Notes under the pieces: generated by a model
The model's input: the letters and a program-made list of their open reading frames with translations, nothing else
Told to the model about the DNA's origin: nothing
Database searches by the model: none
Assembly: GCA_015234045.1 (NCBI GenBank)
Contig: JADFWU010000011.1
Coordinates: 4,781-68,780 of the forward strand
Direction of reading: 5' to 3'
DNA from: Magnetococcales bacterium
GTDB lineage: Bacteria; Pseudomonadota; Magnetococcia; Magnetococcales; JADFWU01
Length of the DNA: 64,000 nucleotides
Shown here: positions 1,420 through 60,785 of the stretch, in pieces
How the letters are laid out: each line of letters opens with the position of its first letter
Numbering within the stretch: position 1 is the stretch's first letter
Translations under genes and position numbers: made by a program

Positions 1420-2245
1420 CCGACCCATCCTGGCAGTGGAAAATTCTCAGAAGGATTTCTCTAAAATTATTCCGATCCCGCTACGGTTACGAGATAGCTT
1501 GGCAACAAACTGAGATCATGTGTTATCAGTGAGTTAAGCGGGGACGACCTCAACTTTCGAGGCCGATTTTCACTGAGTTGTCACAAACAGGCTAAACCCA
1601 TTAAAGATTCTGATATGCCCATTCTTGTCGTCAGCGGTAACGAAAGCGGCCATTTTCTTGAGGTCGGATGCCAAAATAGAAAATTCTCTATTTTGCAGCC
1701 CCATTTCGGTAACCAAGATGGGACTGCGGAAAGATTGCATTTCAGAATGCCATCTCGGTGGTCTTCATCATAAGTACCTGCGCAAAGCAGCCTGATCAAG
1801 CCATACCAATCAAATTGTCAAAGGGCGCTTCTGCAATGGTGCTTTGATGTCCCCTGTCTACTTTATGGAAAATGAGGCTGTTGGCATCTATCGAGCACCA
1901 GTTCCTTTATCAATCTTCCCGAAAATCATCTTCCCAGTCCACCGAAACCTGTTCATCAACCGTTGCTCAACCGCCCAGAATCGGAACGGATGACGTAAAC
2001 GGGATATGATAAGGGTTTCTTTGGATCGATGTGGTAACCCTCATTGGATCCTCATGTCCACGCCTGTGTCACCTTACCCTCACCAGACACCCAAAACCGG
2101 AAGAACCGTATTTGATCAATATTTCCGCTGTTTCAGTTGACATTAACCAACAAAAAGTTCAAAGTTTTTAAATCACTTCTAGGGCATGTTGGCTGTAGAA
2201 TTTATTAATAAAATTTGAACCACCCTTGAATGGAGGGCAAAATTG

Positions 2246-2827
2246 ATGGCTGTTGAAACCATGATGTTTAAAGTCGGTGAAGCGCAAGCAACACAACTGC
2301 CTATTTTAGCAGGCAATAAGTACACCATTGGCCAAGCCATGGCTACCAAAGGCGGCTTGGGCAGCTGGGTTTTCCTCCACCCTGCTGGCAGCAGTGCTGC
2401 TGCTGAAGGTATGGTCGCAGTAAAAATTCAGGGCACACAGCAGTTGGCAACCCTCTCTACCATGACCGGTAAATCATTCGTCGTCGGTCAGGCACCTTTG
2501 ACCAGCGCCGGGGTAGGCAATTGGCTGGTTCTTAGCCCGGCAAAGGCCACCACGGTCAGCAAAGGAGCCGCCTTGGCTGCTACTGGTACTGCTGGGGCCA
2601 AAGGCGGCTCTGCAACCAAAGGACTTTCCGCCGGCAAGATTATCGGCAGCAAGAAAGCCGCCACCAGCGCGGCGGCGGCGGCAGGATCAAAAGGTACTGC
2701 TGCCAAAGTGGGCACAGGTTTAGGTTTGGGACTGGGCCTCAGCACCGGCGGGACAGTTGCTCTGTTTGGCGCTTTTGTCGCTGTTGGTATCGGAATTCAC
2801 AGCTATATGAGCCGCTCCAAGGCTTAA
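2246..2827 (+). CDS. MamD/Mms6-family magnetosome membrane protein (short form)
   Basis: 193 aa. The start ATG at 2246 is preferred over an adjacent TTG because GGAGGG lies upstream. The N-terminus (MAVETMMFKVGEAQATQ) closely matches that of the second MamD at 38059 on the minus strand. Two repeats of a G-K-x-F/Y-x-V/I-G...NWL-x-L/F-H-P module cover residues 20-115. A Gly/Ala/Lys-rich linker follows, then a Leu-Gly repeat (GLGLGLGLS) and one hydrophobic segment near 165-187. The LG-repeat plus membrane helix is the signature of the Mms6/MamD family, whose members sit in the magnetosome membrane and affect magnetite crystal growth. It precedes a GTPase gene by 41 bases. Which subfamily it belongs to (MamD, Mms6, MmsC) I cannot settle. 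Confidence 0.8.
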   Translation: MAVETMMFKVGEAQATQLPILAGNKYTIGQAMATKGGLGSWVFLHPAGSSAAAEGMVAVKIQGTQQLATLSTMTGKSFVVGQAPLTSAGVGNWLVLSPAKATTVSKGAALAATGTAGAKGGSATKGLSAGKIIGSKKAATSAAAAAGSKGTAAKVGTGLGLGLGLSTGGTVALFGAFVAVGIGIHSYMSRSKA

Positions 2828-2868
2828 GGGCCGTTGATGCCGTAATCTCATACTGAAACTGGATATGA

Positions 2869-4065
2869 ATGGACGCCATTTTTCAGGAGCTTGACGCTTT
2901 TCGGGGTAGACATCGAACCGAAACGGTTAAAATCGCTCTGTTTGGTGATATCAATACTGGCAAAAGTTCCCTGATCAAGGCGTTCCTACCCCATGCACGG
3001 GTGAGAACCTCGGTCATTGCCGATACAGATCATCAAATCCGTCACTACCTTTGGAAAACGCCTCAGGGGGATGAAGTATTCCTGGTTGACCTGCCTGGCA
3101 TGCATGCCGCTGCCGAAGCACCGAACCACCTGGCAAAACTGGAAGCACTGTTGGCCGATATTGTCCTCTATGTCTGCACAGAGGATCTGACCCGTGATCA
3201 ATACCGGGATCTCAATACACTGATCATCAGCCAGAAACCGATCATTATTGTCCTCAACAAAAAGGACCACCACAGCCAAGATAACATTGGGCGCATTCAA
3301 TCCCGCATCACAAAACGGCTGGTAGAGCAGTTCGAAGCGCTGTCATCCATGCCAACCGCAGAGATACCGGTCATTGCCGTCAGCTCCGGGGGCATGCGGG
3401 AGAAAATCCGTCGCATGCCCGATGGAACCGAACAGATCGAACGTGAGACTATCACGCCTGAAGTCGCACCACTCTATGCTGCCCTGGACGGTTTTCTGGC
3501 TCAAGTAAAACAGCAGCGCAACGAGACACCAACCCATCAGATATTCAGCCAGGAAACCCGTCAAATGGCGGATCTGCTGGCACGATATCGGCTGGATTCT
3601 TGCGAAAAACTGATTCAGACTGCAATTCGGCAGGCCATCCATGGTACAACCACAACGTCGCATAAGCATGACATCAGCACTGCTGTGCGTGGTAACCTTG
3701 GACATGCGTTGACACGGCAACTGAAAACGATTTTCGAAATTGATCAGGAAAGCAATCAGATCACTGAGATCCTCCAGAGCGTGAGTCTCTTTCTGCAAGA
3801 ACAGGCGTCTGTTCTCTCCCAACTGATCCGTGACACTGCCCCATCAAGCCACAATAAGCAGCAACCGCTCTCTGATAGCAGTGTTGATCAACTCCTCCCA
3901 GGCGTGGCGGTCGCCTTTCTTGGCCAAGCGATTGTCGAAATACTCCAGCAACAGGACAGTCTATCTACCGATATAGTGACTGAACATATCTCCCAATCAA
4001 TACATGGAGAAGACCACGCAATTGTTCACACTGTCATACACCTCATACATACCATCAATGAGTGA
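2869..4065 (+). CDS. Era/dynamin-like GTPase next to the mamD-like gene
   Basis: 398 aa. The N-terminal 170 residues form a TRAFAC-type G domain. The P-loop is GDINTGKSS (about residues 26-34), G3 is DLPGMH, G4 is NKKD. The rest (about 215-398) is helical, with no transmembrane helix that I can see, and has no recognisable domain. The gene follows the mamD-like gene by 41 bases on the same strand and is closed off by a terminator at 4147-4178, so the two probably form an operon. GTPases of this class often act in membrane remodelling or ribosome assembly. Linkage to a crystal-associated membrane protein makes a role in vesicle shaping or protein sorting plausible, but that is inference. Confidence 0.75.
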   Translation: MDAIFQELDAFRGRHRTETVKIALFGDINTGKSSLIKAFLPHARVRTSVIADTDHQIRHYLWKTPQGDEVFLVDLPGMHAAAEAPNHLAKLEALLADIVLYVCTEDLTRDQYRDLNTLIISQKPIIIVLNKKDHHSQDNIGRIQSRITKRLVEQFEALSSMPTAEIPVIAVSSGGMREKIRRMPDGTEQIERETITPEVAPLYAALDGFLAQVKQQRNETPTHQIFSQETRQMADLLARYRLDSCEKLIQTAIRQAIHGTTTTSHKHDISTAVRGNLGHALTRQLKTIFEIDQESNQITEILQSVSLFLQEQASVLSQLIRDTAPSSHNKQQPLSDSSVDQLLPGVAVAFLGQAIVEILQQQDSLSTDIVTEHISQSIHGEDHAIVHTVIHLIHTINE

Positions 4066-9446: not shown

Positions 9447-10790
9447 CTACTCTATCACCTGGTCAAGAATGAAGTTCGCGGCTTCAATTGCCTCGGATGT
9501 ATCCATCATTTCACAGTTTTCTACATCCCCAACCATCACTTGTAACTGTGCAAGCAGGGTCATCATCGCTCTGACCATGTCCGGACGGATAACCAAGTGA
9601 TCAGCGACTTCACTCATTGATTGGACCACTGTGAGCAATACATGACTGATTTCTGTGATATTGATGAGCTGGCAGTAGTGGGCAGCATTCTGAATGGCAT
9701 GGGCATGACGACTAATCTGATTGAGTTGCACCAAATCAATGGCCTGATTTGACCGGCCCGTTATATCCATGAATGAGGATTGAATGGCAGAGAGTTTTTC
9801 AGAGGCTTCCTGGGAGAAAATCCACAACAGCTCATCCATTTTATGGGGCATGCTGTCCAACCAGCTGAACATGACCTCTTTGAGGGTTGGATCGACCTGA
9901 TTCCAAGCAAGAACTCTAGTACGCGGATCGCCGATATACTCTAACAGAAACCGTTGCAGAAGCGTCTGCATTGCACGAGTGGGCTTGCGATTCAAAAATG
10001 GCCGCAACAGCGTCTCAACCAAAAGAACCTTATAGAACCCGCCAAAAACTAGAAACAGCTCATTCTTTCCCCTGAACCCTTCTAAAACCGTATGCATCTT
10101 TTGGACAGATATTCTTCGGGTGTTCAAGGATGCGGCCAGAAGCGTCAGGAGATGGTTATAACTGTGCCAAACAAATCCATGTTGCGACACGTCACTACTC
10201 AATTTAGCCTGTTCACACAGATGATAGGCCAGGGTATCACCTTGATGAATTTTTTCAGCAAATGCCTTAGGACCATCAGAATCCAGCAACTTGTACTGTT
10301 GGCATATCCGCCATCGCGCCTCTATTTCAGGACGCTGGACATGTTTTAATAATGCCCTTATTTTGACCCGCCAAAACTCAAACAGATCAGTCTGATGCCT
10401 GGGATAATATATGAGGAAGTTATCTAAAAGCGCGAAAAGCGTACCACTATGCGGCACTGTCTCTTCAAGCCATGAGATCCACTGTTCGACAAAATCGGTT
10501 TGTTCCGCAAGCGATGGATCACCATATTTTTGCCCGGCACTAAACAGAAACCAAGGAACTTGTCGTAGCCGACGCCGCTGTATCCCCTGCAAAGATCCTG
10601 TTGACTTAAACCGATCAACCAGCCACTTGCGGCGTATATCAATTTCCTCCGTAGCACTGAGCAGTGATGGTGAGCCAGGTATGCTTCTGTTGATTTCGGC
10701 CCATTTCTTCTGTATTCGGAATGGATAGGCAACCTGCTCCTCATCCGGCAACGGTATTTTCCATCCAATAAGCGTACTGGACAAACTCAT
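9447..10790 (-). CDS. ZorC-like protein with EH-signature domain
   Basis: 447 aa, soluble. The region around residues 240-330 matches the EH_Signature domain of ZorC: an alpha-helical stretch, then LLQRFLLEYIGDPR (YIGDPR at 285-290), a W a few residues later, and the F-SWLD segment. The N-terminal 235 residues are helical. The C-terminal 100 residues (after about 345) are a further helical stretch that I do not recognise. The gene overlaps the ZorB-like gene by four bases (ATGA), the same order (A-B-C) as in Zorya. In Zorya, ZorC is a cytoplasmic partner of the ZorAB motor and contacts DNA. Here it is the last gene of the mam-linked run, and no ZorD helicase/nuclease or ZorE HNH nuclease follows. 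Confidence 0.7.
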   Translation of the reverse strand: MSLSSTLIGWKIPLPDEEQVAYPFRIQKKWAEINRSIPGSPSLLSATEEIDIRRKWLVDRFKSTGSLQGIQRRRLRQVPWFLFSAGQKYGDPSLAEQTDFVEQWISWLEETVPHSGTLFALLDNFLIYYPRHQTDLFEFWRVKIRALLKHVQRPEIEARWRICQQYKLLDSDGPKAFAEKIHQGDTLAYHLCEQAKLSSDVSQHGFVWHSYNHLLTLLAASLNTRRISVQKMHTVLEGFRGKNELFLVFGGFYKVLLVETLLRPFLNRKPTRAMQTLLQRFLLEYIGDPRTRVLAWNQVDPTLKEVMFSWLDSMPHKMDELLWIFSQEASEKLSAIQSSFMDITGRSNQAIDLVQLNQISRHAHAIQNAAHYCQLINITEISHVLLTVVQSMSEVADHLVIRPDMVRAMMTLLAQLQVMVGDVENCEMMDTSEAIEAANFILDQVIE

Positions 10791-11719
10791 TGCATCTGTT
10801 CCAATTCCAGAGTGAGTTGATCCAGCTCTTTGAGAATCAGTGGTATTATTTCCGGTGGCCGGGGATTGGTGAGCAAAAACCGCATGTCGATACGCCGGTT
10901 GATCGGCTCATCGGTGGGCTTTTCATGGGCCACCACGGGCCGGTGCTCGCCATAGCCACTGATGCCGAATACCGGTTGCTTTGACTGATTGCTCAGATTT
11001 GCCAAGGAGCGACTCGCCTCTACATGGCTGGACTCCAGCAGATACTCGAATGTGCGAATCGCCCGCATACCGGAGAGATGGAGATTATTGTCATGGGGAT
11101 TGGCTCGACTTAACGGGATATTATCTGTGTGCCCCTCAATGAATACGGCATCAAGCGTACCGGGATTCCATTGATCGTCATTACAGTGTTCAGGTCGGGA
11201 TGTCATTTCAGCCTGCCCTGCATAACACGCAAGATGCTTATCAAGCACCACAGAGAGTCTTTTCAGTGTGTTTCGCCCCTTTTTTCCCAAATCCGCAGAG
11301 CCTGAGTGGAACAGAATTTTATCTGAAAGCCGCAAGATCCCCTGGTCGGGATCAATCACCACATCCTTCATCCGCATTGTTTGCAGCTCTTTGAAAATAT
11401 CGACCAGCAACTGTTCCTTGAGTCGATCAGTACGACTCAGATAGAGGTCAATATTCTTGCGCAGACTATTGGAAAGCGTCTGCAACTCTTCGATCTTCAA
11501 GTTGAGCACCTTCAGCCGTTCCGCCTGCTCTTGGCGCTCTTTTTTCAACGGCTCCAGTTCTGCTTCATAATCTTTCTGAGAGGTATTCAGATGCAGTGCA
11601 AAAATACTCAGAGTGATAATAAAAACGAAAACCAATCCCGCCATCAGATCACTGATAGAGATGAAATAGCCTTGCTCGGCTTCGATCTCAACTCGACTGC
11701 TGACTCGACGATCACGCAT
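10787..11719 (-). CDS. ZorB-like protein (MotB/OmpA-type stator subunit)
   Basis: 310 aa. The N-terminus carries the ZorB hallmark GYFISISDLMAGLVFVFI (residues 17-34), a single transmembrane helix with Asp24 at its cytoplasmic side; this Asp is the proton-carrying residue in MotB/ZorB proteins. A coiled coil (about 50-100) leads to a C-terminal OmpA-like peptidoglycan-binding domain (about 125-295) with FHSGSADL, EGHTDNIPL and NRRIDMRF. GGAGGT lies just upstream of the ATG. It sits 12 bases after the ZorA-like gene and overlaps the ZorC-like gene. Flagellar MotB is excluded by the SDLMAGL-type helix, the partner gene and the absence of flagellar genes. Confidence 0.85.
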   Translation of the reverse strand: MRDRRVSSRVEIEAEQGYFISISDLMAGLVFVFIITLSIFALHLNTSQKDYEAELEPLKKERQEQAERLKVLNLKIEELQTLSNSLRKNIDLYLSRTDRLKEQLLVDIFKELQTMRMKDVVIDPDQGILRLSDKILFHSGSADLGKKGRNTLKRLSVVLDKHLACYAGQAEMTSRPEHCNDDQWNPGTLDAVFIEGHTDNIPLSRANPHDNNLHLSGMRAIRTFEYLLESSHVEASRSLANLSNQSKQPVFGISGYGEHRPVVAHEKPTDEPINRRIDMRFLLTNPRPPEIIPLILKELDQLTLELEQMQ

Positions 11720-11731
11720 GGCTAACCTCCG

Positions 11732-14700
11732 TTACTGTTTCTCGGACAGTTGGCCTAGAAAATCACTCAAGGATTCATTCATATCATCCAGCTTGCTACC
11801 AAACTCACCGATGCTCATGTTCAGCTTGCCAGTGACGTTACCCATATTGTCATCAATATTATGAATAAAGCCAATGATATTACCGGAAAATTCATTCAAG
11901 CCCTTACTGAGATTGATAAAGGTCCGCTCAAGCGATTCATCCACTGTTTCAAACCGCGACTGATACTCCTCCCACACAGCTTTGAGTTGACGATGGGCCT
12001 CCCCGATGGCAACCAGTGTTTCCTGAGCAATGTATTGAGTCTGCACCAGAGTTCCGGTGACCTTCTCGATCTTCTCGACACCACTATAGATTTTATCTCC
12101 GGTGATTGAGAACTGCTGACTGGCCTCGGCAAGCATCCCGGTGGTGTGCTCCATCGGTTGCAACAGGTTGGATGATATTTGAGAGATGAATTCATCAAGA
12201 CTGTTGCCCATCTCATCCATACGATTACCAAATCCACCGATGGTCACACCGAATTTATCAGCAACATTCTCCATATGCCTATCCATGCCATTGACAAAGT
12301 CAACAACCTGATGGGAAAACTCGCCAAGTCCACCGTTGAGATTGTTGAAGGTGTGTTCAAGGGTGTTGTCAACACTCTCAAAGCGAGACTGGTAGTTGGT
12401 CCACACCCCCTGAAGCTGCTCATGGGCCAGGGTGATCGCTTGCAGGGTTGCCTGCGCTACCTCTTGAGTCTGTCCCATGGTCTGAGTGACCGCATCCAAT
12501 TTACCGAACCCAGAATAGAGTCGGTCACCAGCCTGACTGAGAGAACGGCTGGCGGCCTCCATCGGCGTGATCAACTGACGCATGCTGGTCTGGGCTGTAT
12601 CAAAGGTTCGAGCAAAATCACGAATATTTTCGAGAGATGTCCGAGTTTCAGCAGCGATTCCCACCGAATCACTCAGCGTGTTGGCCAATCTTCGCGTAGC
12701 TGTACCCAACTCAGTGGCTGCCTGTTGAATCGATTCACCACTCATCTGAATCGCACCATGGAGACTGGCATTGTCAGTGCTCAACCGTTTTTGTGAGGCA
12801 TGTAATGCCTCAGCATTCTGCATGCTGTTGTTGAGCATCGCCGATGCGGAGTGGCTCATATCGTCCATCTGTTGGGAGAGTCGATCAACCAACCTGCCCA
12901 TACGATCCTCAAAGTTGCCGGACGTTGACTGTGTACCGCTGGAGGCTCTGCTGACATCTTTCATCAGGTCGGGAATCACTGACAGATGCCGCCCCATCGA
13001 CTCCTGGGAGGATTTCATACTTTCAATGGATGAGTGCAAAGTCGAAAACGCCTGCAACATCTGATCGGTCATCTGTTGTGAGGCGTGATTGATGCCCTCA
13101 AGCATACGATCATTATTCGTAGTCAACTGTGACAGCGTTCTGCTCTGACTGTCTCCTTTGTTATCTGCCGCCAACTGTCCAGACAACTGGGTCATGAATC
13201 CATCAAACTTGGTCTCCATACGGGTATGGAAACTGTGTAATCCTTCCGTAAGCTGATGGACCTGATTGGCAATATCGGGCGTTGAGACCCCCAATTGACG
13301 CATCTCCGCCAATATCGACCGAACACTCTCGGATAGCGCACTCATCACCGTATGGGAGTGCTGTACCTGATCGTTGAACCGGCTGCTGAACTGTCCCATG
13401 GTATCAGAGACAGAATCAGCCACAGAGGGGGTGTTATCGCTTTTCTTCATCTGTGCCAACATGGCGCTCATGCTGTCCGCCATGTCGCTGATGGCAATGC
13501 GCGTCTGCGCCATCTGATCACTGATCTGACTGCCCAGATCCTGCATACCCGTTGTTGCCGCTGTCGATTCTGCACCTGAACTGCTCGCTGCTGTGGTCAT
13601 GGTACCAACAGCCTGCATCAGTTTTTCGGCGGTTTGGCTCAGCCCATTGGCAGCGTGTGTCATCTGTTCACCAGCGCTGCTGACCACCTGGCCCAACGCC
13701 TTGGTATCGGTTCCAATCTGGGACTGAGAGTTTTGTAGGGATTGAATGAACTGTTCGGATTGATCGAGCGCCTGGAGGTTGCCTGCCTTGCTCTGCTGCA
13801 TCTGCTCCACCATGTCATCCATGGCGATCATATTGTCGCCAAACAGGGCATGGAACTGTTCAAAACGCTCTACCAGTTTCTCAGTGGAGACCAATATCTG
13901 CGGCGTGGTATTGAGTAGTAAAATCAGTTCGTCATGACCACTCTTCATTCCAGATACCACACCAGCCAAATCGGTTACCGACTGTTCTAAGCGGTCTCCC
14001 AGATCCGATGTCGATTTCTTGAACTGCTCTGATATGGATTGGGTACTGGCTGCAAGCCTGTCCCGATCCTGTTGCACCATGTCACTCAGTTGCTTCTGAG
14101 TGGTCTCCTGAGCGGTTTGCCAGGAGGCAGTAATCGTATTGGTCTGCCGCTTGAGTGTTTCATTGATGCTGGTCAATGACTCGCCAAAGGTGGATAAGTG
14201 CTTACCAATGACACTCTCAGCTGATGCCTCTTTGGCTGCTGGAACCACAACAGCAGCGGTGTTCTCAATAGAACCCGCAGGTGCCAAAAGCTGAACCGCC
14301 TGTACCATCTGATCAATGGATTGTTGAAATCGGCCCTGACCAAGATAACTGTTTTTCGCTTCAGATACGGACAACGCAATGGTGCTATTGAAGATTTTCA
14401 TTTGATTGGTCTGCTGGCGAAGCTCTTTAAACAGCCTTTCCTGGTTCTTACTGATGTCGGAGAGCGCCGTCTCCTCAGCAGGCTTGAGATCCAATCGACC
14501 AGTTAAGTTTAAAACAAAGCGACGAATCTGAAAGGAGACCCCATACAGCCGTCGTTTCTCCAAAAGCGAAAAAATGATCGACATGCTGATGCCGCAGATG
14601 GAGGTAAGAAATGCCAGTGAGGCACCTCCCATAAGGTCTCCCAGAGCAGCGCGCATCTCTTCCGGACCAGCATTCATACCTTTTTGGGCCAGATGAATAC

Positions 14701-15196
14701 CCGCAACCAGACCGATAAAGGTTCCCAAAATGCCCAAACCGGTCAGCAGGTTGGGTATTGAGTTGTAGAGCCGGATGTTGAGATGGTTGTAGAGCAGACT
14801 GCGATCATGGAAAAAATAACCAGGATCAGCAGTAGTCGTAATCGGTTTGGGTTTTTCCGGCGGGGTATAGTTGAGATTATTGACGAATGTCTTCCAAGGC
14901 CCCTTCAGAATTGTCAACCTGGAATCAGCCAAATCCCTGTTAAACACATCCCAATTGATCGCAAACAGATACTTTCTGCGGATTTCGTGATCATCCGCAT
15001 CTATTTCTGACCAATCATGCTCCTCTGGCAGATTTTCGGTGCGTCTCAACAGGCGCAGCCCACCGTTAATATGCCGAAGAACCTTGTTTGTCCTAAGATA
15101 GAGCGACAGAAGTGTAGCAAAAAAAACCGCACTGATAATCAGGCAGAAAATCGCGACCCCTGTCATACTGGAAAAAAAATGCGCAAAGGCGGTCAA
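11732..15196 (-). CDS. ZorA-like MotA/ExbB-type channel protein with a giant tail
   Basis: 1154 aa. The start is TTG 15196 with AGGAGAG upstream. A first membrane helix lies at about 12-32. The MotA/TolQ/ExbB-type channel helices follow at about 148-166 (LLTGLGILGTFIGLVAG) and 188-212 (GGASLAFLTSICGISMSI), typical of ZorA. Everything after residue 230 is long helical, coiled-coil-prone sequence rich in Gln, Ser and Met. It resembles methyl-accepting chemotaxis protein cytoplasmic repeats but lacks the MCP hairpin tip. The C-terminus holds a near-perfect duplication of about 120 residues (890-1011 and 1033-1154). ZorA tails project into the cytoplasm and set the length of the complex; this one is far longer than the 500-750 residues I associate with the family. 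Asp24 of the adjacent ZorB-like protein would complete the proton channel. Confidence 0.85.
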   Translation of the reverse strand: MTAFAHFFSSMTGVAIFCLIISAVFFATLLSLYLRTNKVLRHINGGLRLLRRTENLPEEHDWSEIDADDHEIRRKYLFAINWDVFNRDLADSRLTILKGPWKTFVNNLNYTPPEKPKPITTTADPGYFFHDRSLLYNHLNIRLYNSIPNLLTGLGILGTFIGLVAGIHLAQKGMNAGPEEMRAALGDLMGGASLAFLTSICGISMSIIFSLLEKRRLYGVSFQIRRFVLNLTGRLDLKPAEETALSDISKNQERLFKELRQQTNQMKIFNSTIALSVSEAKNSYLGQGRFQQSIDQMVQAVQLLAPAGSIENTAAVVVPAAKEASAESVIGKHLSTFGESLTSINETLKRQTNTITASWQTAQETTQKQLSDMVQQDRDRLAASTQSISEQFKKSTSDLGDRLEQSVTDLAGVVSGMKSGHDELILLLNTTPQILVSTEKLVERFEQFHALFGDNMIAMDDMVEQMQQSKAGNLQALDQSEQFIQSLQNSQSQIGTDTKALGQVVSSAGEQMTHAANGLSQTAEKLMQAVGTMTTAASSSGAESTAATTGMQDLGSQISDQMAQTRIAISDMADSMSAMLAQMKKSDNTPSVADSVSDTMGQFSSRFNDQVQHSHTVMSALSESVRSILAEMRQLGVSTPDIANQVHQLTEGLHSFHTRMETKFDGFMTQLSGQLAADNKGDSQSRTLSQLTTNNDRMLEGINHASQQMTDQMLQAFSTLHSSIESMKSSQESMGRHLSVIPDLMKDVSRASSGTQSTSGNFEDRMGRLVDRLSQQMDDMSHSASAMLNNSMQNAEALHASQKRLSTDNASLHGAIQMSGESIQQAATELGTATRRLANTLSDSVGIAAETRTSLENIRDFARTFDTAQTSMRQLITPMEAASRSLSQAGDRLYSGFGKLDAVTQTMGQTQEVAQATLQAITLAHEQLQGVWTNYQSRFESVDNTLEHTFNNLNGGLGEFSHQVVDFVNGMDRHMENVADKFGVTIGGFGNRMDEMGNSLDEFISQISSNLLQPMEHTTGMLAEASQQFSITGDKIYSGVEKIEKVTGTLVQTQYIAQETLVAIGEAHRQLKAVWEEYQSRFETVDESLERTFINLSKGLNEFSGNIIGFIHNIDDNMGNVTGKLNMSIGEFGSKLDDMNESLSDFLGQLSEKQ
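11735..12529 (-). repeat. internal tandem duplication in the ZorA-like tail
   Basis: Two copies of a 122-residue unit, separated by 21 residues. Unit 1 starts GDRLYSG and contains YQSRFESVD; unit 2 starts GDKIYSG and contains YQSRFETVD. Both continue with a VTIGGFGNRMDEM / MSIGEFGSKLDDM type end. The DNA copies have diverged, so the duplication is old and maintained at protein level. Confidence 0.85.
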
Positions 15197-15259: not shown

Positions 15260-18196
15260 CTACAAATATTTCAGCATGGCCCTTACACGGGTTGAGGATA
15301 AATCCCGAATGGTCAGGATACCATCCTCTTGTATACGCAACACATGGCTGAAGGAGAACCACTTGTCACTCACGACAATGAAAGCCTGCCAAAACTCAGG
15401 CGGAATACGGGCTGTACCATCGGACCGGAACCAATACATATAGCCCTGGCCTGATTCGGTCTGAAAAAACAGCCGCACATCGGCGATATTATCCGCTGTC
15501 AAAGTAAATGTCGTGCCTGCAGCGGAAAAAGTTCTGTCAATAAAGGCGCTGATATCGACAATAAGGTTATTTTTTTCATCTGTGCGAATAGCAACGATTG
15601 GCGTTGGCCCATCTGAGTCACTCAAGCGATAAGGAACGCGCCAAAGGCGGTTATAGTGTTTGAATTGATTGTTATAGGTCGCCAATATTTCTTCAGGCGT
15701 TTTCTTTGCTTCAGCAAACTGATCCGTACTCTGCGCTTCGGGATCACTGCCCCCGGTTTGCCTATCGGTAAGAAAGGATTCTGTTCGCTGCACATCACCC
15801 CGTAATTCGGTCTGCTCTGCCGTGTCTATCAGGGCAATCCTATCATCCACATGTTCCTGTTCAACCTGTACAGTTTGAGGTGCTGCATTTTCAGCAGAAA
15901 GTTGCAAAGCCGTAGCAGCATCCCCTGATCCTGAAGCGTGCTCCGACGCAAAACCTGGTTCTTGAAGCTGTTCATAGGGCGCGACAAGAGTTGACTCTCC
16001 GGCGGTCAGCGTTGAGGATTCATCGGCAAATATCGCCTCAACTTCCGCTGGCGTCTGTCCCATTGATGCTTCAATAGCTGACTGAAGATCATCCGCCACC
16101 GCTTGGCTGTCAACTATCGACTGAGTGTCATTAACAGCGGCATCAGTTACATCAACTGAGAGATCATCATCTGGAGACAACAGGGCAACCTGAGGCTGCT
16201 CCGAGTCAGGTTCAGTATCCGCCGAAGGCTTTTGTATCGCCTTGTTATTGGACGGTTTCTGAACTACGGCATCAACCTGCTTGGCAGTGATACCTGATTT
16301 GGATACGGCAGGTCTGTTTTTACCCACTGCATCAGGCGTGTTGAGCACAACCAGCGGCTCAGTGCTTTGCCCTCGGTCAATGAAATTGCTGATCGTATCA
16401 CCATAAAACCAGATCAGGCCCACCAGTCCTGCTGCAATCGCACCGAAGGAGAACCATCCCACCATATTTCGTTTTGGACGGTATTCTTCATCGTAGAGAC
16501 TCTCAGGCTCAGCCGCACGCTCATCCTGTTCCATCTCCTGTTCAGGCACATTCCACATTTCCGCCGACGGATATAACTCTTCGACATGCCTGTCATCCAG
16601 TGACAGATGCTTGTCCAACAGCGGATAGGTCAGTTCCGATGAAACAAGGATATAGATGCGATCATCCGGGTATGACGACCAGTCCAGCTGCGCCAAACCT
16701 TCAGGTCGGGTATCCATGATGGCTGCAACCGGATCAAGCAGCTCACACACATAGTTGTAGTGCACTTTCCGATTGATGGGATCGTTTGGCAGGATAATCT
16801 CAATGGAGAAAAACTGCAGATCACGCGCAGCAGCATTCTGAACTGTACCAGGATAGTTGCTCAGATCAAAGATCTGCCTTGCCGCCCCTGTTTCTGATCT
16901 GCTGGACGCCCCCTCATCAGGCTTCTGACGGAATTGAGAGTCCTGTTCATCTTCAACGGGTTGTAGGATGTTTTCAATGCCTGCCACTGATCGCTGAACA
17001 TCGAACGTATTAATCGAGCCTACATTGCCAAACAACGCAATAAGATCGTCAAACCCACCCTGTAGTGCGGATACCACTTTTAAATTCAATGGAATCGACT
17101 TATCTACTACAGAATCAATCAGTTGTTCCATTACCAGAGAGAGGCTGAGCGCATTGACAAGGTTAAAATGTTCGGAAGAGCCCCGTACAGCGCGCACCTG
17201 TTGGAGAATAAGATTGAACTCAATCAAATTCAGCGGCGCTTCAACCTCTACCTGATCCAGATGGGTGCGTCCACGCTCCAAATGTTTCAGTGCTTCCAAT
17301 GTCACCTGATAAAGTTGTTTTCCGTCATTCTCATCCTCATTTTGGTCAGAGACGTCCATGGCAGGAACATCATCTGGTGGCGTTTGCACCTCAGATAAAG
17401 TCTCCTGCATCTCTTCCGTAACCGGGATGGCAACGATCCACGCATCCGGCAGTTGTGACAACGATACCAACAACTCTTTCTGAAGCAGTGAAGTAAACAG
17501 CAGATGAATCGGCGCATCCGAATCAGTGTCAAGCGTCAACCCTTCCTCAATGGGAGGAGTGGTATCAACGATGGTACCCACCGACATCAGGATATCGATC
17601 AAATCCCTCAGCGACTCGAACTGTTCCTCTCCTAAAATGGAGGGATGGATTGCAATGGCGTAGATCGCCCGATTCTGCTGCACAGCCCGTGCGACTATTT
17701 CTGGATAATGGCTCAGATCAAAAGGGATAGATCCAGTACTGGCTGCACTATAAGCGGGTGGAGCATCATCCACTTCTGGAGACTCGACAGCGGAAAGAGC
17801 AGTCATAGCATCCTGCACATCAATGCTATCACTCACTGAAACATCCTCAAACAACTGCTGCAATGCTTCAAAGCCGATCAGCAGGCGATCAATCAATGAT
17901 TGTGAAAAAATCAGTTGATCGTTTTCGACCTGCTCAAGCAACCGCTCCATCATGCGGGTCACACGAACGATATTGGTAAAATTAAAGAGCTCCGCAGAAC
18001 CACGAATACTACGAACGCCGTGCAGCAATGGATGAATCGAACTGATATCAACCTCATCCTCTTGGGGCACAACGAATTGCAGGCGTTGCAGGCAGTTGTC
18101 CAAAGAAGCGGTTGCCTCTTTGATAAAGAAGTCCAACTGCGTTGAGGTGGATTTTGAGACAAAACTATTTCTTTTTACGTCATCTGTTATAGACAT
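15260..18196 (-). CDS. membrane protein with two His-less Hpt domains and CheA-like modules
   Basis: 978 aa from ATG 18196, chosen for AAGGTGG eight bases upstream. Residues 20-130 fold-match an Hpt domain, but the phospho-acceptor position reads VRSIRGSA (Arg62) instead of x-H-S-I-K-G. A second Hpt-like copy near residue 340 reads VRAVRGSS, again with Arg. Each is followed by a segment like the one after Hpt in CheA (SNYPGTVQNA, YPEIVARA, then a beta-alpha unit ending in VGTIVDTTP or AAIMDTRP). A lone transmembrane helix lies near 590 (FGAIAAGLVGLIWF). Beyond it comes an acidic, low-complexity stretch and a C-terminal beta-rich domain (about 850-978), probably periplasmic. Without His the Hpt folds cannot carry phosphate, so they may serve as receiver-docking scaffolds. 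It precedes the ZorA-like gene by 63 bases. Confidence 0.7.
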   Translation of the reverse strand: MSITDDVKRNSFVSKSTSTQLDFFIKEATASLDNCLQRLQFVVPQEDEVDISSIHPLLHGVRSIRGSAELFNFTNIVRVTRMMERLLEQVENDQLIFSQSLIDRLLIGFEALQQLFEDVSVSDSIDVQDAMTALSAVESPEVDDAPPAYSAASTGSIPFDLSHYPEIVARAVQQNRAIYAIAIHPSILGEEQFESLRDLIDILMSVGTIVDTTPPIEEGLTLDTDSDAPIHLLFTSLLQKELLVSLSQLPDAWIVAIPVTEEMQETLSEVQTPPDDVPAMDVSDQNEDENDGKQLYQVTLEALKHLERGRTHLDQVEVEAPLNLIEFNLILQQVRAVRGSSEHFNLVNALSLSLVMEQLIDSVVDKSIPLNLKVVSALQGGFDDLIALFGNVGSINTFDVQRSVAGIENILQPVEDEQDSQFRQKPDEGASSRSETGAARQIFDLSNYPGTVQNAAARDLQFFSIEIILPNDPINRKVHYNYVCELLDPVAAIMDTRPEGLAQLDWSSYPDDRIYILVSSELTYPLLDKHLSLDDRHVEELYPSAEMWNVPEQEMEQDERAAEPESLYDEEYRPKRNMVGWFSFGAIAAGLVGLIWFYGDTISNFIDRGQSTEPLVVLNTPDAVGKNRPAVSKSGITAKQVDAVVQKPSNNKAIQKPSADTEPDSEQPQVALLSPDDDLSVDVTDAAVNDTQSIVDSQAVADDLQSAIEASMGQTPAEVEAIFADESSTLTAGESTLVAPYEQLQEPGFASEHASGSGDAATALQLSAENAAPQTVQVEQEHVDDRIALIDTAEQTELRGDVQRTESFLTDRQTGGSDPEAQSTDQFAEAKKTPEEILATYNNQFKHYNRLWRVPYRLSDSDGPTPIVAIRTDEKNNLIVDISAFIDRTFSAAGTTFTLTADNIADVRLFFQTESGQGYMYWFRSDGTARIPPEFWQAFIVVSDKWFSFSHVLRIQEDGILTIRDLSSTRVRAMLKYL

Positions 18197-18267
18197 AATC
18201 AAATCCACCTTGAAAAACGTCAACGACTCCCCGATGATGACGACCTGAAATCATTCTTATATGAACA

Positions 18268-19209
18268 TCAGGAAAAATCGAGAAGCCGGCCTAATTTCAC
18301 TTTTGCAAAAAGTTGTCTTACTCTACTGTTACTGTTAATGACTTTGATGCGGCTCTTGTCGGTTCCATTGTGTCGAACCAACATCAGAATCGTCCCCAGT
18401 TCAGGCCGCTCAAGATGCTGAAGATTGGCAAAATCAAGTAAATAGTGCGTGTTTTCAGGACGATGCCGGTAAGCTGCAATGAACGCTTCACGACAGCTGG
18501 CATCAAACACCCCATTTACCCGAATGACAACCTGATCCTGCCCATCATCGCGCTTCTCTTCTTCAACTTGAACTGTAATATTGGTATCAGTCAGCGTTTC
18601 GTAGTGCATATCCAGCTTAACAGCCGTCTGATCAATATGACTGTCTTGCACGGCTGTCTGTATTGCATTGTTGAAATTTACCAGTTTAATATCGCTTTTT
18701 TTTCCTTTGTTATGATCCGCCATCATCAACAACATACCGATACCTGAGGGGGTAATATCGGTTGCATTATGGAAGTCCAATAGATATTTAGTACCGGGTT
18801 TGTTGTTTCGATAGGCATCAACAAAATCGATCAGACAGTTCGCGTTGACATGCCCTTTAAAATTGATTTTTATTCCATCTTCAAGGGGATGTATGTACTC
18901 AATACCGTTATTGATATGATAGGCGATACCTTTAAGCACGCTCTCTTTTTCCATGGAAATCACCGCAATACCATGGTTTTCCACACGTACTACCTTGGCC
19001 TTTTCCTGAATAAGAATATCGTCATGTTCCAACCGCAACAGCCCCTCCGCACCCTCATCCACCAAGCACGGTTTCTCCAAAATGATGAAAATGGAGTTGA
19101 TACTGATCTCCTGGGCAATGCCGACACACCAGTTGAATTTGACTGGCACACCACAATAATGGCGCTCCATTAATCGTGGTGCTATTGAAGATGTGGAGGT
19201 GGTGGTCAT
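18268..19209 (-). CDS. PilZ-like plus double STAS domain protein
   Basis: 313 aa, soluble. Residues 10-95 resemble a PilZ fold (VPVKFNWCVGIAQEISINSIF...), although the RxxxR c-di-GMP motif is not convincing. Two STAS domains follow, at about 105-190 (VDAYRNNKPGTKYLLDFHNATDITPSGIG type) and 215-310 (FIAAYRHRPENTHYLLDF). The first has Ser at the usual phosphorylatable position (TPSGIG); the second has RPELG there. STAS domains of this type act as anti-anti-sigma-like switches or scaffold modules. The gene sits 20 bases downstream of the receiver gene and upstream of the Hpt-like protein, so a signalling relay controlling the ZorAB-like complex is plausible but inferred. Confidence 0.75.
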   Translation of the reverse strand: MTTTSTSSIAPRLMERHYCGVPVKFNWCVGIAQEISINSIFIILEKPCLVDEGAEGLLRLEHDDILIQEKAKVVRVENHGIAVISMEKESVLKGIAYHINNGIEYIHPLEDGIKINFKGHVNANCLIDFVDAYRNNKPGTKYLLDFHNATDITPSGIGMLLMMADHNKGKKSDIKLVNFNNAIQTAVQDSHIDQTAVKLDMHYETLTDTNITVQVEEEKRDDGQDQVVIRVNGVFDASCREAFIAAYRHRPENTHYLLDFANLQHLERPELGTILMLVRHNGTDKSRIKVINSNSRVRQLFAKVKLGRLLDFS

Positions 19210-19229: not shown

Positions 19230-19637
19230 TTACCCTTCATCCTCTTCAACCAATCCATGTTCCAACAACTTATCCAGAAGCATCTGCCTGGTAATCGGCT
19301 TGGTCAGATAGTCAGCAGCACCGCCTTTGAAAAAGGACTGCATTGCCTGAATGGATGAATCCATTCCAGTCACCATGATGATCATGCACGGCTTTTGATC
19401 TGGTGCCAGCTCACTCTCAATGGCACGCATCCGCTGAACTGCCTTCTGGCCATCCATAACCGGCATGACGATATCCATTAGGACCAGATCGTAGGGTTCA
19501 CCATCTTCCAGGTCGGCTTCAAACAGCTCCAACGCTGCTTTGCCATCATTAACCATGTCACAGTCTGCATACGGTCGCAGAATATCGCGCAACAGTTTAC
19601 GGTTGTTGAAATTATCGTCAGCAATCAAGACCTTCAT
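19230..19637 (-). CDS. CheY-like single-domain response regulator
   Basis: 135 aa, one receiver domain with all key residues: Asp7/Asp8 (LIADDN), phospho-acceptor Asp55 (LVLMDIVMPVMDG), the Thr of VTGMD and the Lys of LTKPITR. There is no output domain. GGAGGT lies immediately upstream of the ATG. No histidine kinase is adjacent; the closest in the window is the hybrid kinase at 48229-51081. Its neighbours with STAS and His-less Hpt domains suggest a partner-switching role inside this operon. Confidence 0.9.
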   Translation of the reverse strand: MKVLIADDNFNNRKLLRDILRPYADCDMVNDGKAALELFEADLEDGEPYDLVLMDIVMPVMDGQKAVQRMRAIESELAPDQKPCMIIMVTGMDSSIQAMQSFFKGGAADYLTKPITRQMLLDKLLEHGLVEEDEG

Positions 19638-19684: not shown

Positions 19685-19726
19685 CTGGAAGATCTGTTTT
19701 GGGTACTCTAAACAGATTCTCAGTTA
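19685..19726. other. hairpin-forming intercistronic sequence
   Basis: ATCTGTTT and AAACAGAT form a perfect 8-bp stem around a 10-nt loop, extended imperfectly on both sides, in the gap between the 194-aa gene and the receiver gene. There is no T run, so it is not an obvious terminator. It may affect mRNA processing or stability. Confidence 0.35.
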
Positions 19727-20308
19727 AGTATTGCTACCCTGCCCCTTCTTTGCACTCTTCTGCTTCTCTTCAAGGCTTTCAATCGAGTGAGATAATCCAT
19801 AAGCTATAAAGAACGGAATTTTATAAGCACGATGTCCGACCCTGATCAACAGGGATCCACGGCAGCTCTCCTGTTTCCAAATGACTTTGTACAGAATGAA
19901 TTTTCCAGGTTCTGCTGAAAAAGTGATTTTGACCCGCCGCGCAATCTGGCTGCCAAATTCTACGCCCCGGTTTTTTCCCAACTCTTTCTGAATAAAGCCT
20001 TCAAGAATCGGCCACCAATTCGCCTTGGAAAGCTTGGAGGTCTGTTCCGTCTGCCCCAACCGCAACTGCACCGTTGCCGTTCTGGCAAACTCATGCTCGC
20101 TGATCAGGGTATTACTACCAAAACGGTTGTCCAGCGGCACCTCTTCTGTGGACAAGACGATCGGTGGCTCAGGATGAATGGTCTCCCGAATAAACTCAAT
20201 AGAGGGCGCCTTGCTTGACTTATCATGGATAAATCGCTTGTGGAAAAGCTTCTTTCCAACAAATATCCCGGTAAGTGCCGCAACGCCAAATGTCACAAAT
20301 GGAAGCAT
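19724..20308 (-). CDS. hypothetical membrane-anchored protein, 194 aa
   Basis: An N-terminal hydrophobic helix (residues 1-18, LPFVTFGVAALTGIFVG) with basic residues after it anchors a cytoplasmic-type domain of about 150 residues. That domain has alternating beta-strand-like sequence (FILYKVIWKQESCRGSLLIRVG). I do not recognise the family. It lies between the 287-aa gene and the receiver gene in the run downstream of mamT. With its neighbour it forms the bridge between the classical mam genes and the Zor-like module, so it may be specific to this magnetosome cluster. Confidence 0.7.
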   Translation of the reverse strand: MLPFVTFGVAALTGIFVGKKLFHKRFIHDKSSKAPSIEFIRETIHPEPPIVLSTEEVPLDNRFGSNTLISEHEFARTATVQLRLGQTEQTSKLSKANWWPILEGFIQKELGKNRGVEFGSQIARRVKITFSAEPGKFILYKVIWKQESCRGSLLIRVGHRAYKIPFFIAYGLSHSIESLEEKQKSAKKGQGSNT

Positions 20309-20405: not shown

Positions 20406-21269
20406 TCAACCTGTTCCATCTTTTTGGATTCTCTCGTTATATACCGACACCATCTGTTCCAAAATTTGAGGTAGATCAGCACTTAAGCGGAAGATCATGT
20501 CGTGAGCCTGGATCATATTGTCCAGGTTGCCCTTGAAAATTTCACCAATCTTCTGGAACGGCACGGCAATGATCTTCAACTCCTGATGGGTCTTATCAAA
20601 GGACTTCTCAAAGTCCTTTATTTCAGTACCGATATTGACCAAGGTTTCATAGATCATCTGGTCGCTGGGTGGCTCTTCTGTATCAAGCAGTGCGCTCAAC
20701 CGACTGATAGAGGTGGTTTTCAACTTCTCAGCCGCCAACCCTTCCTCTTCGATTGTCTTGATCAGCGGTTCCAGGTAGATCACCAGGCGCGGATCAATCC
20801 GTTTTTTTAACTCTTCAATCAGAGTACTTTGATCAGAGGACATTTTGACCAGAACATCAGCCGGAATGGCATCACCACTTCCGGTAACAGCAGCTATGCC
20901 ATCGTCTTCACCCGTTATCGGCTCAGCATTACCGGTCAGACGCGTGTGCATGATCGCGGTCAGTTTTTCAATATTCTTCAGACGCGCATCCAGTGCCTGA
21001 ACGGTAGCATCCCCGCTGCTGCCAGCCAGTGCCCCACCCGCACCTATGGCCGGAGATTTGCCTGTCTGATCAACCATGGTACCAGATGAGGCGGAGATTT
21101 GTTGAGCAATCCGCTCCATACGATCAAGTTTTGCGTCCAATTCCTGAAAACGCTGAGTCGAGGCCACATGCAATTCGACAATCTTGCCAATCAATCCCTC
21201 CATCACATTAATTCTGTTTTGGAAAGATGCTTCGCAGAATCCTTCTTGAATTCCTTTTTTCAGAGCCAT
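20406..21269 (-). CDS. hypothetical coiled-coil protein, 287 aa
   Basis: Soluble and helical. An N-terminal coiled coil (about 15-60: VELHVASTQRFQELDAKLDRM) is followed by a flexible Gly/Ala/Ser-rich linker. The C-terminal 150 residues look helical, with another coiled coil around KDFEKSFDKTHQELK and a region ending RLSADLPQILEQMV. No transmembrane segment and no known domain. It starts 18 bases after the mamT stop with a GGGAGAG ribosome binding site, so it is very likely co-transcribed with mamT. The family is not recognised; its helical nature would suit a scaffold or partner of the ZorA-like tail, which is inference. Confidence 0.7.
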   Translation of the reverse strand: MALKKGIQEGFCEASFQNRINVMEGLIGKIVELHVASTQRFQELDAKLDRMERIAQQISASSGTMVDQTGKSPAIGAGGALAGSSGDATVQALDARLKNIEKLTAIMHTRLTGNAEPITGEDDGIAAVTGSGDAIPADVLVKMSSDQSTLIEELKKRIDPRLVIYLEPLIKTIEEEGLAAEKLKTTSISRLSALLDTEEPPSDQMIYETLVNIGTEIKDFEKSFDKTHQELKIIAVPFQKIGEIFKGNLDNMIQAHDMIFRLSADLPQILEQMVSVYNERIQKDGTG

Positions 21270-21287: not shown

Positions 21288-21794
21288 CTATTTGGTTTGA
21301 ACCTGCACCAAAACATCATGACATTTGATACAGCGCCCTGATGCCGGATGAGGCCGTGCTGAATCCGGCAGAATAGGCGGGCCAAATTTGGTAATCTCTT
21401 TTGACGCCCTCTCCCAGACTTTGGCAACCGGTGTTGCTGGTTGACTACCGGCTGGAGCACCGCCTCGAATCAGATGACATTTGGTGCACGGCCCCCAATA
21501 GGGATGCGGCATTTTGGCACCCGGATTGATGCGCGGAATGCGTTTGATCAACACCTTCGTCAACCGTCGTGGCTTAATGGCATCCTGAATCGGTGCCTGC
21601 AACGACGGTTGGGTCGGCTTGGGCAGTATCCCCAGAATTTCACCCCGCATTTGACGGCTCGGTCCACCCAATCCCAAACTATCTATGGACTTCTTTAAAG
21701 TCCCTTCGCTCATCAGTAACAGTCCGATTACGATAATCAGGGCAATCAGGCCCAACAAGGGCCAAATAGGGGGTCTGCCTTGGGGGTCATCCAT
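21288..21794 (-). CDS. mamT: MamT, double magnetochrome protein
   Basis: 168 aa with an N-terminal membrane anchor (about 10-28, WPLLGLIALIIVIGLLL). Two magnetochrome heme motifs follow: PYWGPCTKCH near residue 106 and ASGRCIKCH near 157, each preceded by the typical HP element. Length and layout fit MamT, which binds c-type heme in the magnetosome lumen or periplasm and contributes to magnetite maturation, presumably by electron transfer. It is seven bases downstream of mamS, as in other mam operons. Confidence 0.9.
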   Translation of the reverse strand: MDDPQGRPPIWPLLGLIALIIVIGLLLMSEGTLKKSIDSLGLGGPSRQMRGEILGILPKPTQPSLQAPIQDAIKPRRLTKVLIKRIPRINPGAKMPHPYWGPCTKCHLIRGGAPAGSQPATPVAKVWERASKEITKFGPPILPDSARPHPASGRCIKCHDVLVQVQTK

Positions 21795-59013: not shown

Positions 59014-59562
59014 TTATGCAATTACTCGACGAACACCAGAGACAAATGTGTTAAAACTGGTAGAACAATTATTCTCCAGATCCATGTGTGGACCGATAGC
59101 CCTTGAGCCCGCTATTTTTTGGTATTCTGTAGCAATTCTGGTGAGTTCCTGAACTGGGTTGCCCAGCCGATCCGGTGTTCTATACTTACGTTTATTCTGC
59201 ATTTTTGACAGCCCATTGATGGCCATCCCTTTTTCTACGGCCTTCAAATCCCCAAGATACCAGCTTTCCAACTCTCGACAGGCGATGCGAATCAGCACGC
59301 CTGTTTTGTTAGCCTGTTTGCAAAGATCGACCAACTTATTTTTCAGTTGATAACAGTCTGCACCATCACGATCTTGCAGCACCACAAATCGTGCATCCTG
59401 TGATTGCCACGCTTTTAAACGTCTGGGCATTTTTTTTGCAAGATCCTGTTTCCCTTCGAACACCAAATAGCGAATACGCACATCCTCTGGCACAAACCGA
59501 GGCAACACGCCCTTAAGCATCTCTTTTGCGGAAGGTTCCTCCAGTAAAAACACCAATTCCAT
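59014..59562 (-). CDS. DUF4276 family TOPRIM-like protein
   Basis: 182 aa. The motif set FLLEEPSAKEML, VLQDRDGADC and RIACRELESWYLGD gives the Glu, Asp-x-Asp and Glu expected of a TOPRIM-like nuclease fold. It starts two bases after the AAA ATPase stop, so the pair is co-expressed. Such ATPase-TOPRIM pairs are frequent in anti-phage systems; this specific pair I have not matched to a named one. Confidence 0.75.
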   Translation of the reverse strand: MELVFLLEEPSAKEMLKGVLPRFVPEDVRIRYLVFEGKQDLAKKMPRRLKAWQSQDARFVVLQDRDGADCYQLKNKLVDLCKQANKTGVLIRIACRELESWYLGDLKAVEKGMAINGLSKMQNKRKYRTPDRLGNPVQELTRIATEYQKIAGSRAIGPHMDLENNCSTSFNTFVSGVRRVIA

Positions 59563-59564
59563 AC

Positions 59565-60755
59565 TTACGGCTCCACACTTTCAAACAGACCTTCTTTCCA
59601 CAGATACCCCATCTGATCGCCTGCATCCATACAAGCTTTAACCTGAGGATCATCCTGAGCACGCTGTATATGAGTCAAGCCCTCTTTTTTACTCAGCCAA
59701 AAGACCTCATCCACTCCCAAGGCATTCATAAAATCCGGTGAATGTGTAGAGACAAACACCTGTCCACCTCGATTGGCATAGCTGCGGAACTCTTCGGCCA
59801 ACTCCCAAAGCAATGAAGGATAGAGCTGATTTTCAGGCTCTTCGACACACAGAAGAGGATGTGGATTGGGATCGTATAACAGAATCAAATAAGCGAACAT
59901 CTTAATGGTGCCATCTGAGACATGGCGGGCTAGAAAGGGATCTTCAAAAGCACCATCTTTGAATTTAAGAAGAACGCGCCCTTCTTCAGTGATCTTTGTT
60001 TCTACATTTTCAATGCCTGGGACGCGCGCTGACAGCTTGGCCAAAATGGTCTGAAACTGTTGTTGGTGATGGGCATGAAGAAACTCCGTCACCAAAGAGA
60101 GATTCTCACCCTCAGTGGAGAGATGTTCTGCATAGCCCGCTTCTTGTTCCGGCCTAGCACGATTAATATGGAAATCAGACACATGCCAATTTTCGATTAA
60201 ATCACCGAGCACACGTACAGCCGGAAACTCTTTAAACTGTGACAATCCGCGCACCGCTAGGATATCCGGTGATTTTAATGTCTGATCTTTGCGCTCCAAC
60301 AGTTTGATATCATCAATATCCTCCAACTCATTGGTAACCGCGCTACCAACCCCTTTTTTAAAGTCCAGAAAATGCCAAGGCTGACCATGAGAACCGCGAC
60401 GATATTTTAAGATTTCCCTCTCGACTACCGGCATACGGCTCTTTTTATCATTATCAATCGAAAGGAAATAGGTCACCAAAGGCTGCCCCGGTTTCTCCCG
60501 AAATTTCAGGGTAATCTCAATAGGCCCTTTTGTGCCGCGACTGCGTACTTCATCCAATCCACGATTTCCACCCAATTTATGAAGCGCAGTACGTATATTG
60601 CTTGTAAACGCTTCTTTAAGGAAACCAAACAGATGAAACAGAGTAGATTTACCGGTGCCATTTGCGCCTATAAAAACACAAAGGCGCGGCAATTGATCAA
60701 TTTCCATATCTGCAAAAGCACGAAATCGCTTTAGCTTGATCGATTCAATTTGCAT
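59565..60755 (-). CDS. RecF/OLD-like AAA ATPase
   Basis: 396 aa from ATG 60755 (MQIESIKLKRFRAF); a longer start at 60785 is possible. SMC/RecF-type ATPase with Walker A FIGANGTGKSTLFH, a signature-like HVSDGTIKMFAYL, Walker B LLCVEEPENQLYP and the H-loop STHSPDF. AAA15/21-type architecture without a nuclease domain of its own. The partner DUF4276 gene directly follows. Ends up against the radical SAM gene on the same strand. Confidence 0.85.
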   Translation of the reverse strand: MQIESIKLKRFRAFADMEIDQLPRLCVFIGANGTGKSTLFHLFGFLKEAFTSNIRTALHKLGGNRGLDEVRSRGTKGPIEITLKFREKPGQPLVTYFLSIDNDKKSRMPVVEREILKYRRGSHGQPWHFLDFKKGVGSAVTNELEDIDDIKLLERKDQTLKSPDILAVRGLSQFKEFPAVRVLGDLIENWHVSDFHINRARPEQEAGYAEHLSTEGENLSLVTEFLHAHHQQQFQTILAKLSARVPGIENVETKITEEGRVLLKFKDGAFEDPFLARHVSDGTIKMFAYLILLYDPNPHPLLCVEEPENQLYPSLLWELAEEFRSYANRGGQVFVSTHSPDFMNALGVDEVFWLSKKEGLTHIQRAQDDPQVKACMDAGDQMGYLWKEGLFESVEP

Positions 60756-60785
60756 TGGTTTTTCGCCCCTATTACGCCTATCCAA

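Follow-up and report, generated by a model that had tools for sequence, protein, structure and literature searches.

Three adjoining genes at the end of a magnetosome gene cluster in a Magnetococcales bacterium (contig JADFWU010000011.1) encode homologues of ZorA, ZorB and ZorC, the proteins of the type I Zorya phage-defence system. The evidence supports well that this triad is a Zorya-I-derived motor that has been recruited to the magnetosome gene cluster. The genes were studied in a 64,000-nt stretch of this contig (the window), and all coordinates given here are positions in the window. The triad and its main features are as follows:

11732-15196, minus strand: zorA, 1154 aa, motor subunit of the MotA/ExbB type whose tail has about 900 residues (PADLOC ZorA1, 7e-54)
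14429-14908, minus strand: channel region of zorA, residues ~97-256
10787-11719, minus strand: zorB, 310 aa, MotB/OmpA-type subunit with an OmpA peptidoglycan-binding domain (PADLOC ZorB1, 2.3e-71)
11648-11650, minus strand: codon of D24 of zorB, the ion-binding residue
9447-10790, minus strand: zorC, 447 aa, N-terminal EH_Signature part fused to a CheA P1/Hpt-like domain (PADLOC ZorC1, 5.4e-45)
9549-9833, minus strand: Hpt/CheA-P1-like domain of zorC, residues 320-414 (Pfam Hpt, 6e-7), with His364 at the phospho-acceptor position

The motor core of Zorya is conserved

A previous reading of the same DNA, made from sequence only, had placed a Zorya-like set of genes here in the order A-B-C, and three intact minus-strand open reading frames are indeed found at these positions. 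The spacing between zorA and zorB is 12 bp, and zorB and zorC overlap by 4 bp. The Zorya-like assignment also held: the best PADLOC matches are ZorA1, ZorB1 and ZorC1, which rules out a chance resemblance to MotAB, and ZorC passes the Pfam EH_Signature model (42 bits, cut-off 27.5). None of the observations that the sequence-only reading had named as contrary to it, such as best scores to flagellar MotAB, TolQR or ExbBD or the lack of an EH-signature match, was made. ZorA matched the NCBIfam subfamily NF033914 at 1.2e-49, but with 169 bits for a cut-off of 190. With the flagellar MotAB stator, the triad shares a distant motor fold and the OmpA domain (31.3 bits for ZorB with Pfam OmpA). It differs from it by the score of ZorA with Pfam MotA_ExbB, which was only 15.4 bits and below the cut-off, by its long tail and by the presence of a ZorC partner.

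The GYFISISDLMAGL helix of ZorB and its Asp24, both pointed out in the sequence-only reading, are real and invariant in 16/16 relatives, as are T159 and S199 in the channel region of ZorA. Thus, the transmembrane Asp in the B subunit and the Ser/Thr ring in the A subunit that are expected of an ion-driven 5:2 motor are both present. The OmpA-type positions TD, LS..R, GYG..RP and NRRID of ZorB are invariant too. In type I Zorya, D24 of ZorB is a critical or essential Asp, and the ZorA tail and the peptidoglycan-binding domain also matter (PMC11890865). Magnetosome ZorAB likely works like Zorya ZorAB.

The three genes are under purifying selection, with ratios of nonsynonymous to synonymous substitution rates of 0.07-0.19 in five pairs. 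The loss of the effector ZorD (see below) would fit a passive Zorya relic that is decaying in the cluster. This explanation, which was already disfavoured, is extremely improbable in view of these ratios, of the invariant ion-path residues and of the intact reading frames found in divergent families.

We also considered that the triad could power transmembrane transport of iron or protons in the manner of ExbBD and TolQR. The ExbB/MotA-type fold would agree with this, as would the CDF-family transporters that adjoin zorC in some clusters. However, the best matches are to ZorA and ZorB, ZorB carries an OmpA peptidoglycan-binding domain, and a role in transport leaves the giant cytoplasmic tail unexplained. 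No TonB-like gene was noted nearby, though no dedicated search was made. We regard a transport function as improbable.

ZorC has lost its EH region and gained a CheA P1/Hpt-like domain

The alignment of ZorC with PADLOC ZorC1 covers positions 3-308 of the 462 positions of the profile and then stops. We aligned 16 magnetosome ZorC sequences with 10 true ones and found that most of the residues conserved as far as a WL motif are common to both sets. Beyond it, 16/16 magnetosome sequences lack the W-S-H-N-G, H and WQ positions that are conserved in the EH region of true ZorC. The YIGDPR block that the sequence-only reading had compared to the EH signature is real; it sits, however, in the N-terminal part of ZorC, and the half that bears the EH motif is gone. 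An AlphaFold2 model of ZorC, made with 15 relatives, had a pLDDT (predicted local distance difference test) of 82. Its C-terminus superimposed on the CheA P1 structures 1i5n and 1tqg with Foldseek template modelling (TM) scores, normalised to the target, of 0.77-0.84, the E-values for the whole query being weak (0.03-0.2). Pfam Hpt, AlphaFold2 and Foldseek thus all predict a four-helix P1 fold for this region. As judged from these alignments and models, a CheA P1/Hpt-like domain has taken the place of the EH-bearing C-terminal half of ZorC.

This domain is like CheA P1 (Hpt) in its fold and unlike it in being fused to ZorC and in not conserving the acceptor His. Over the 16 ZorC-P1 sequences, the acceptor position is occupied by His (6), Asn (7), Arg (2) or Gln (1), the window copy having His, and the case for a working phosphorelay via ZorC is weakened by this distribution. 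The nearest Hpt outside ZorC belongs, in the majority of Magnetococcales genomes, to a protein of roughly 1100 aa, and the example that we examined, from genome G037, is CheA-like.

The triad is derived from Zorya I but is not a member of it

The sequence-only reading had seen no ZorD in the neighbourhood. This absence extends to the whole assembly, which is 93% complete and in which no ZorD was found at E<=1e-5, and PADLOC detected none among the scanned neighbouring proteins. ZorE, ZorF and ZorG had no PADLOC match among nine proteins (2.9-9.3 and 9.4-19.2 kb), a genome-wide search for them not having been made. Full-length ZorC is found on other Magnetococcales contigs and in other proteobacteria. 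Among the loci whose sequence extends beyond such a zorC, ten have next to it a gene of ZorD size, encoding 970-1228 aa, and for two of the ten its identity as ZorD was confirmed.

The triad resembles type I Zorya in ZorA, ZorB and the N-terminal part of ZorC, in the A-B-C order, in the ion-path residues and in the OmpA domain. It differs from it by the absence of ZorD, by the P1/Hpt-like domain that stands in place of the EH half of ZorC, by its location in magnetosome clusters and by a ZorA tail about twice as long, ZorA having 1154-1610 aa in the magnetosome set versus 617-793 aa in ten true ZorA proteins. Plain Zorya I requires the EH-signature C-terminal motif of ZorC and ZorD besides the ZorA and ZorB subunits, and is ruled out by the loss of the former and the absence of the latter. 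The triad therefore falls outside the definition of Zorya I, but it is derived from it.

The triad forms one clade associated with magnetosome genes

To the extent of our literature search, no paper contained 'Zorya' and 'magnetosome' together, and 'EH signature' and 'magnetotactic' were joined only in Koziaeva et al. 2019 (PMC6783814). The sequence-only reading knew of no description of such a module in magnetosome clusters. This has to be amended: the parts of Koziaeva et al. that deal with these genes list the same three in UR-1, WMHbinv6 and WMHbin3, where their products are given as proteins of unknown function of the EH-signature, MotB and apolipoprotein-like kinds (PMC6783814). In UR-1 they correspond to WP_130470120-122 (locus L036 on contig C525 of genome G019). 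They are the same genes as those of the present triad, and those parts of the paper contain no recognition of Zorya and no analysis of the domain replacement, the distribution or the motor (PMC6783814).

We searched 48 Magnetococcales genomes, all of which (48/48) have magnetochrome genes. ZorC-P1 was present in 16 of them, complete in 15 and, in the last one (G018), truncated where the contig stops, next to an intact zorAB. This recurrence rules out that defence genes were misplaced in a single metagenome-assembled genome. In 13 of the 16 genomes, the contig that bears the triad also has mam genes; none were seen with it in the remaining three, where the contigs are short (12.5 kb in G016, 7.4 kb in G033) or zorC lies at a contig end (G044). 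Two more carriers, outside the 48 genomes and labelled Thiotrichales, were dropped as a possible exception because both have magnetochrome genes. A synteny running from mamT to zorC, as proposed for a survey in the sequence-only reading, turned out to be one of at least three arrangements: the triad may follow mamT, be divergent from mamD-like/mamH genes, or lie upstream of these and co-directional with them. Magnetosome ZorB forms one clade (support 100/99), as does magnetosome ZorC (100/100), apart from true Zorya.

Divergent ZorAB-like pairs, or ZorB-like genes, were found in or beside the cluster in at least 14 other Magnetococcales genomes. In G037, which we take to be Magnetococcus marinus MC-1, mamT is followed by genes for a ZorA-like protein of 1705 aa and a ZorB-like protein of 286 aa, and profiles of this group matched true ZorA and ZorB with probabilities of 99.5 and 99.8. 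This pair is like the triad in its ZorA- and ZorB-like profiles, its giant tail and its place in a mam cluster, and unlike it in having no ZorC and in bearing Glu where D24 stands in the ZorB of the triad. Similar pairs or ZorB-like genes occur in G001, G003, G004, G006, G007, G013, G035, G038 and G039. In G022-G025, a third form of the pair lies beside mamH. Some divergent pairs are at contig ends; in G003 and G035 the only cluster gene seen alongside is u194, which is described below.

Gene order and signalling genes in the window

The triad ends a co-directional run that begins in the mam genes, in keeping with the description of it as the tail of the magnetosome operon in the sequence-only reading. 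In this run, mamT, u287, u194, a receiver gene, a STAS-protein gene, the gene of a 987-aa Hpt protein and zorABC follow each other on the same strand, no more than 97 bp apart:

21288-21794, minus strand: mamT, last gene of the mamAB run, which continues without strand change into zorABC (NCBIfam NF040992 MamT, 1.9e-57, slightly below the cut-off; magnetochrome domains present)
20406-21269, minus strand: u287, probable coiled-coil protein, function unassigned, adjoins mamT
19724-20308, minus strand: u194, conserved protein with an N-terminal helix and a beta domain, function unassigned
19230-19637, minus strand: single-domain response regulator (receiver; Response_reg, 7.9e-20)
18268-19209, minus strand: STAS-domain protein
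15260-18223, minus strand: 987-aa protein with CheA-like P1/Hpt domains, a putative transmembrane helix and a C-terminal region

The 987-aa protein resembles the N-terminal region of CheA (Hpt, 20.2 bits, below the cut-off; CheA model, E=7e-4) and, as read from its sequence, has Arg at the phospho-His position. The u194 gene was found in 45/48 genomes and in many of them adjoins mamT or ZorAB-like genes; it looks like an undescribed core gene of the magnetosome cluster. It gave no functional clue, the elongated beta fold predicted by AlphaFold2 having only weak and uninformative matches in the PDB (TM <=0.37).

The triad co-occurs with a module of kinase, receiver, STAS and Hpt genes. Orthologues of the STAS gene are present in 18/48 genomes, among them all 16 ZorC-P1 carriers (Fisher p=7e-11 in the 48 genomes and 1.3e-6 in the 27 better ones, uncorrected for shared ancestry). 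The STAS gene, downstream of mamT, and the triad are at different ends of the cluster in many genomes, and a PAS-HisKA-HATPase-REC hybrid kinase lies near the STAS gene in some relatives.

These genes bear on the idea that the triad is a mechanosensor, in which the motor, proposed in Zorya to sense strain of the envelope, would here sense the torque of the magnetosomes and relay it via the tail and the P1-like domain of ZorC to receivers and the flagellar system. The fusion of a CheA-P1-like domain to ZorC and the receivers, hybrid kinases and STAS protein of the cluster are consistent with this, and Zorya has been modelled as a sensor of envelope damage (PMC11890865). Yet 10 of the 16 ZorC-P1 domains have no phospho-His, and we hold this explanation to be unlikely, though less so than a role in transport.

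Finally, the triad could be an anti-phage Zorya variant with some other effector, merely stored in the magnetosome island. Its homology to Zorya speaks for this, as do the occurrence of true Zorya in the order and the fact that islands can harbour defence genes. Against this, the EH motif and ZorD have been lost, a single clade has been kept with mam genes through at least three arrangements, and a signalling module located elsewhere in the cluster is found together with the triad. The chances of this explanation seem to us slim.

Elsewhere in the window, positions 2243-4065, outside the mam operon, hold a mamD-like gene and, after it, a GTPase gene with PADLOC similarity to LeoA (1.5e-21). 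A gene pair at 59014-60785, encoding an AAA-type ATPase and a small partner, was read by eye as possibly a defence pair.

A proposed motor for magnetosome placement

The sequence-only reading had left a choice between an incomplete Zorya and a transducer that descends from Zorya and has become adapted to the magnetosome cluster. The maintenance of one clade with mam genes, the loss of EH and ZorD, the gain of P1/Hpt and the purifying selection favour the latter and disfavour the former. The triad is very probably a Zorya derivative belonging to the magnetosome cluster that no longer attacks DNA. Its most plausible function would be to serve the magnetosomes by anchoring or positioning, which we propose with slightly less than even confidence. 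Somewhat more tentatively still, it may be a dedicated chemotaxis-linked, ion-driven and envelope-anchored ZorAB(C) motor that holds, pulls or senses an organelle, the magnetosomes of these cocci.

In the mechanism that we propose, an assumed ZorA5-ZorB2 complex would sit in the inner membrane, tied to the peptidoglycan by ZorB, and ion flow would drive or tension the ZorA tail. Reckoned at 1.5 Å per helical residue, this tail may measure about 130-200 nm. There, ZorC would dock chemotaxis-type receivers instead of DNA. Such a machine would most likely work at the envelope, where it would anchor, tension or reposition the magnetosomes or their skeleton.

Several observations weigh against this proposal. 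The phospho-His is retained in just 6/16 ZorC-P1 domains, and the divergent pairs of G006 and G013 (L108 and L109) lack the ion-binding acid in the transmembrane helix of the ZorB-like protein, so that these two proteins are possibly non-conducting. Neither common descent nor the transfer of entire clusters is corrected for in the co-occurrence and clade counts, and UR-1 and WMHbinv6 have exchanged magnetosome clusters, according to the part of Koziaeva et al. on these strains (PMC6783814). About 18 genomes of the order, several of them fragmentary, had no ZorAB-like pair in the sequence searched, and it does not follow from the data that the motor is universal or needed for making magnetosomes. 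The magnetosomes of UR-1 are unchained and one-sided, while MC-1 has a single chain. UR-1, with its unchained cluster, is the sole ZorABC carrier whose magnetosome arrangement is known, which is too few to link zorABC to a phenotype.

ZorAB(C) is a concrete and testable motor candidate. If the proposal is true, a phage-defence machine would have been turned to housekeeping through the loss of the end that attacks DNA and the acquisition of a docking domain of chemotaxis type.

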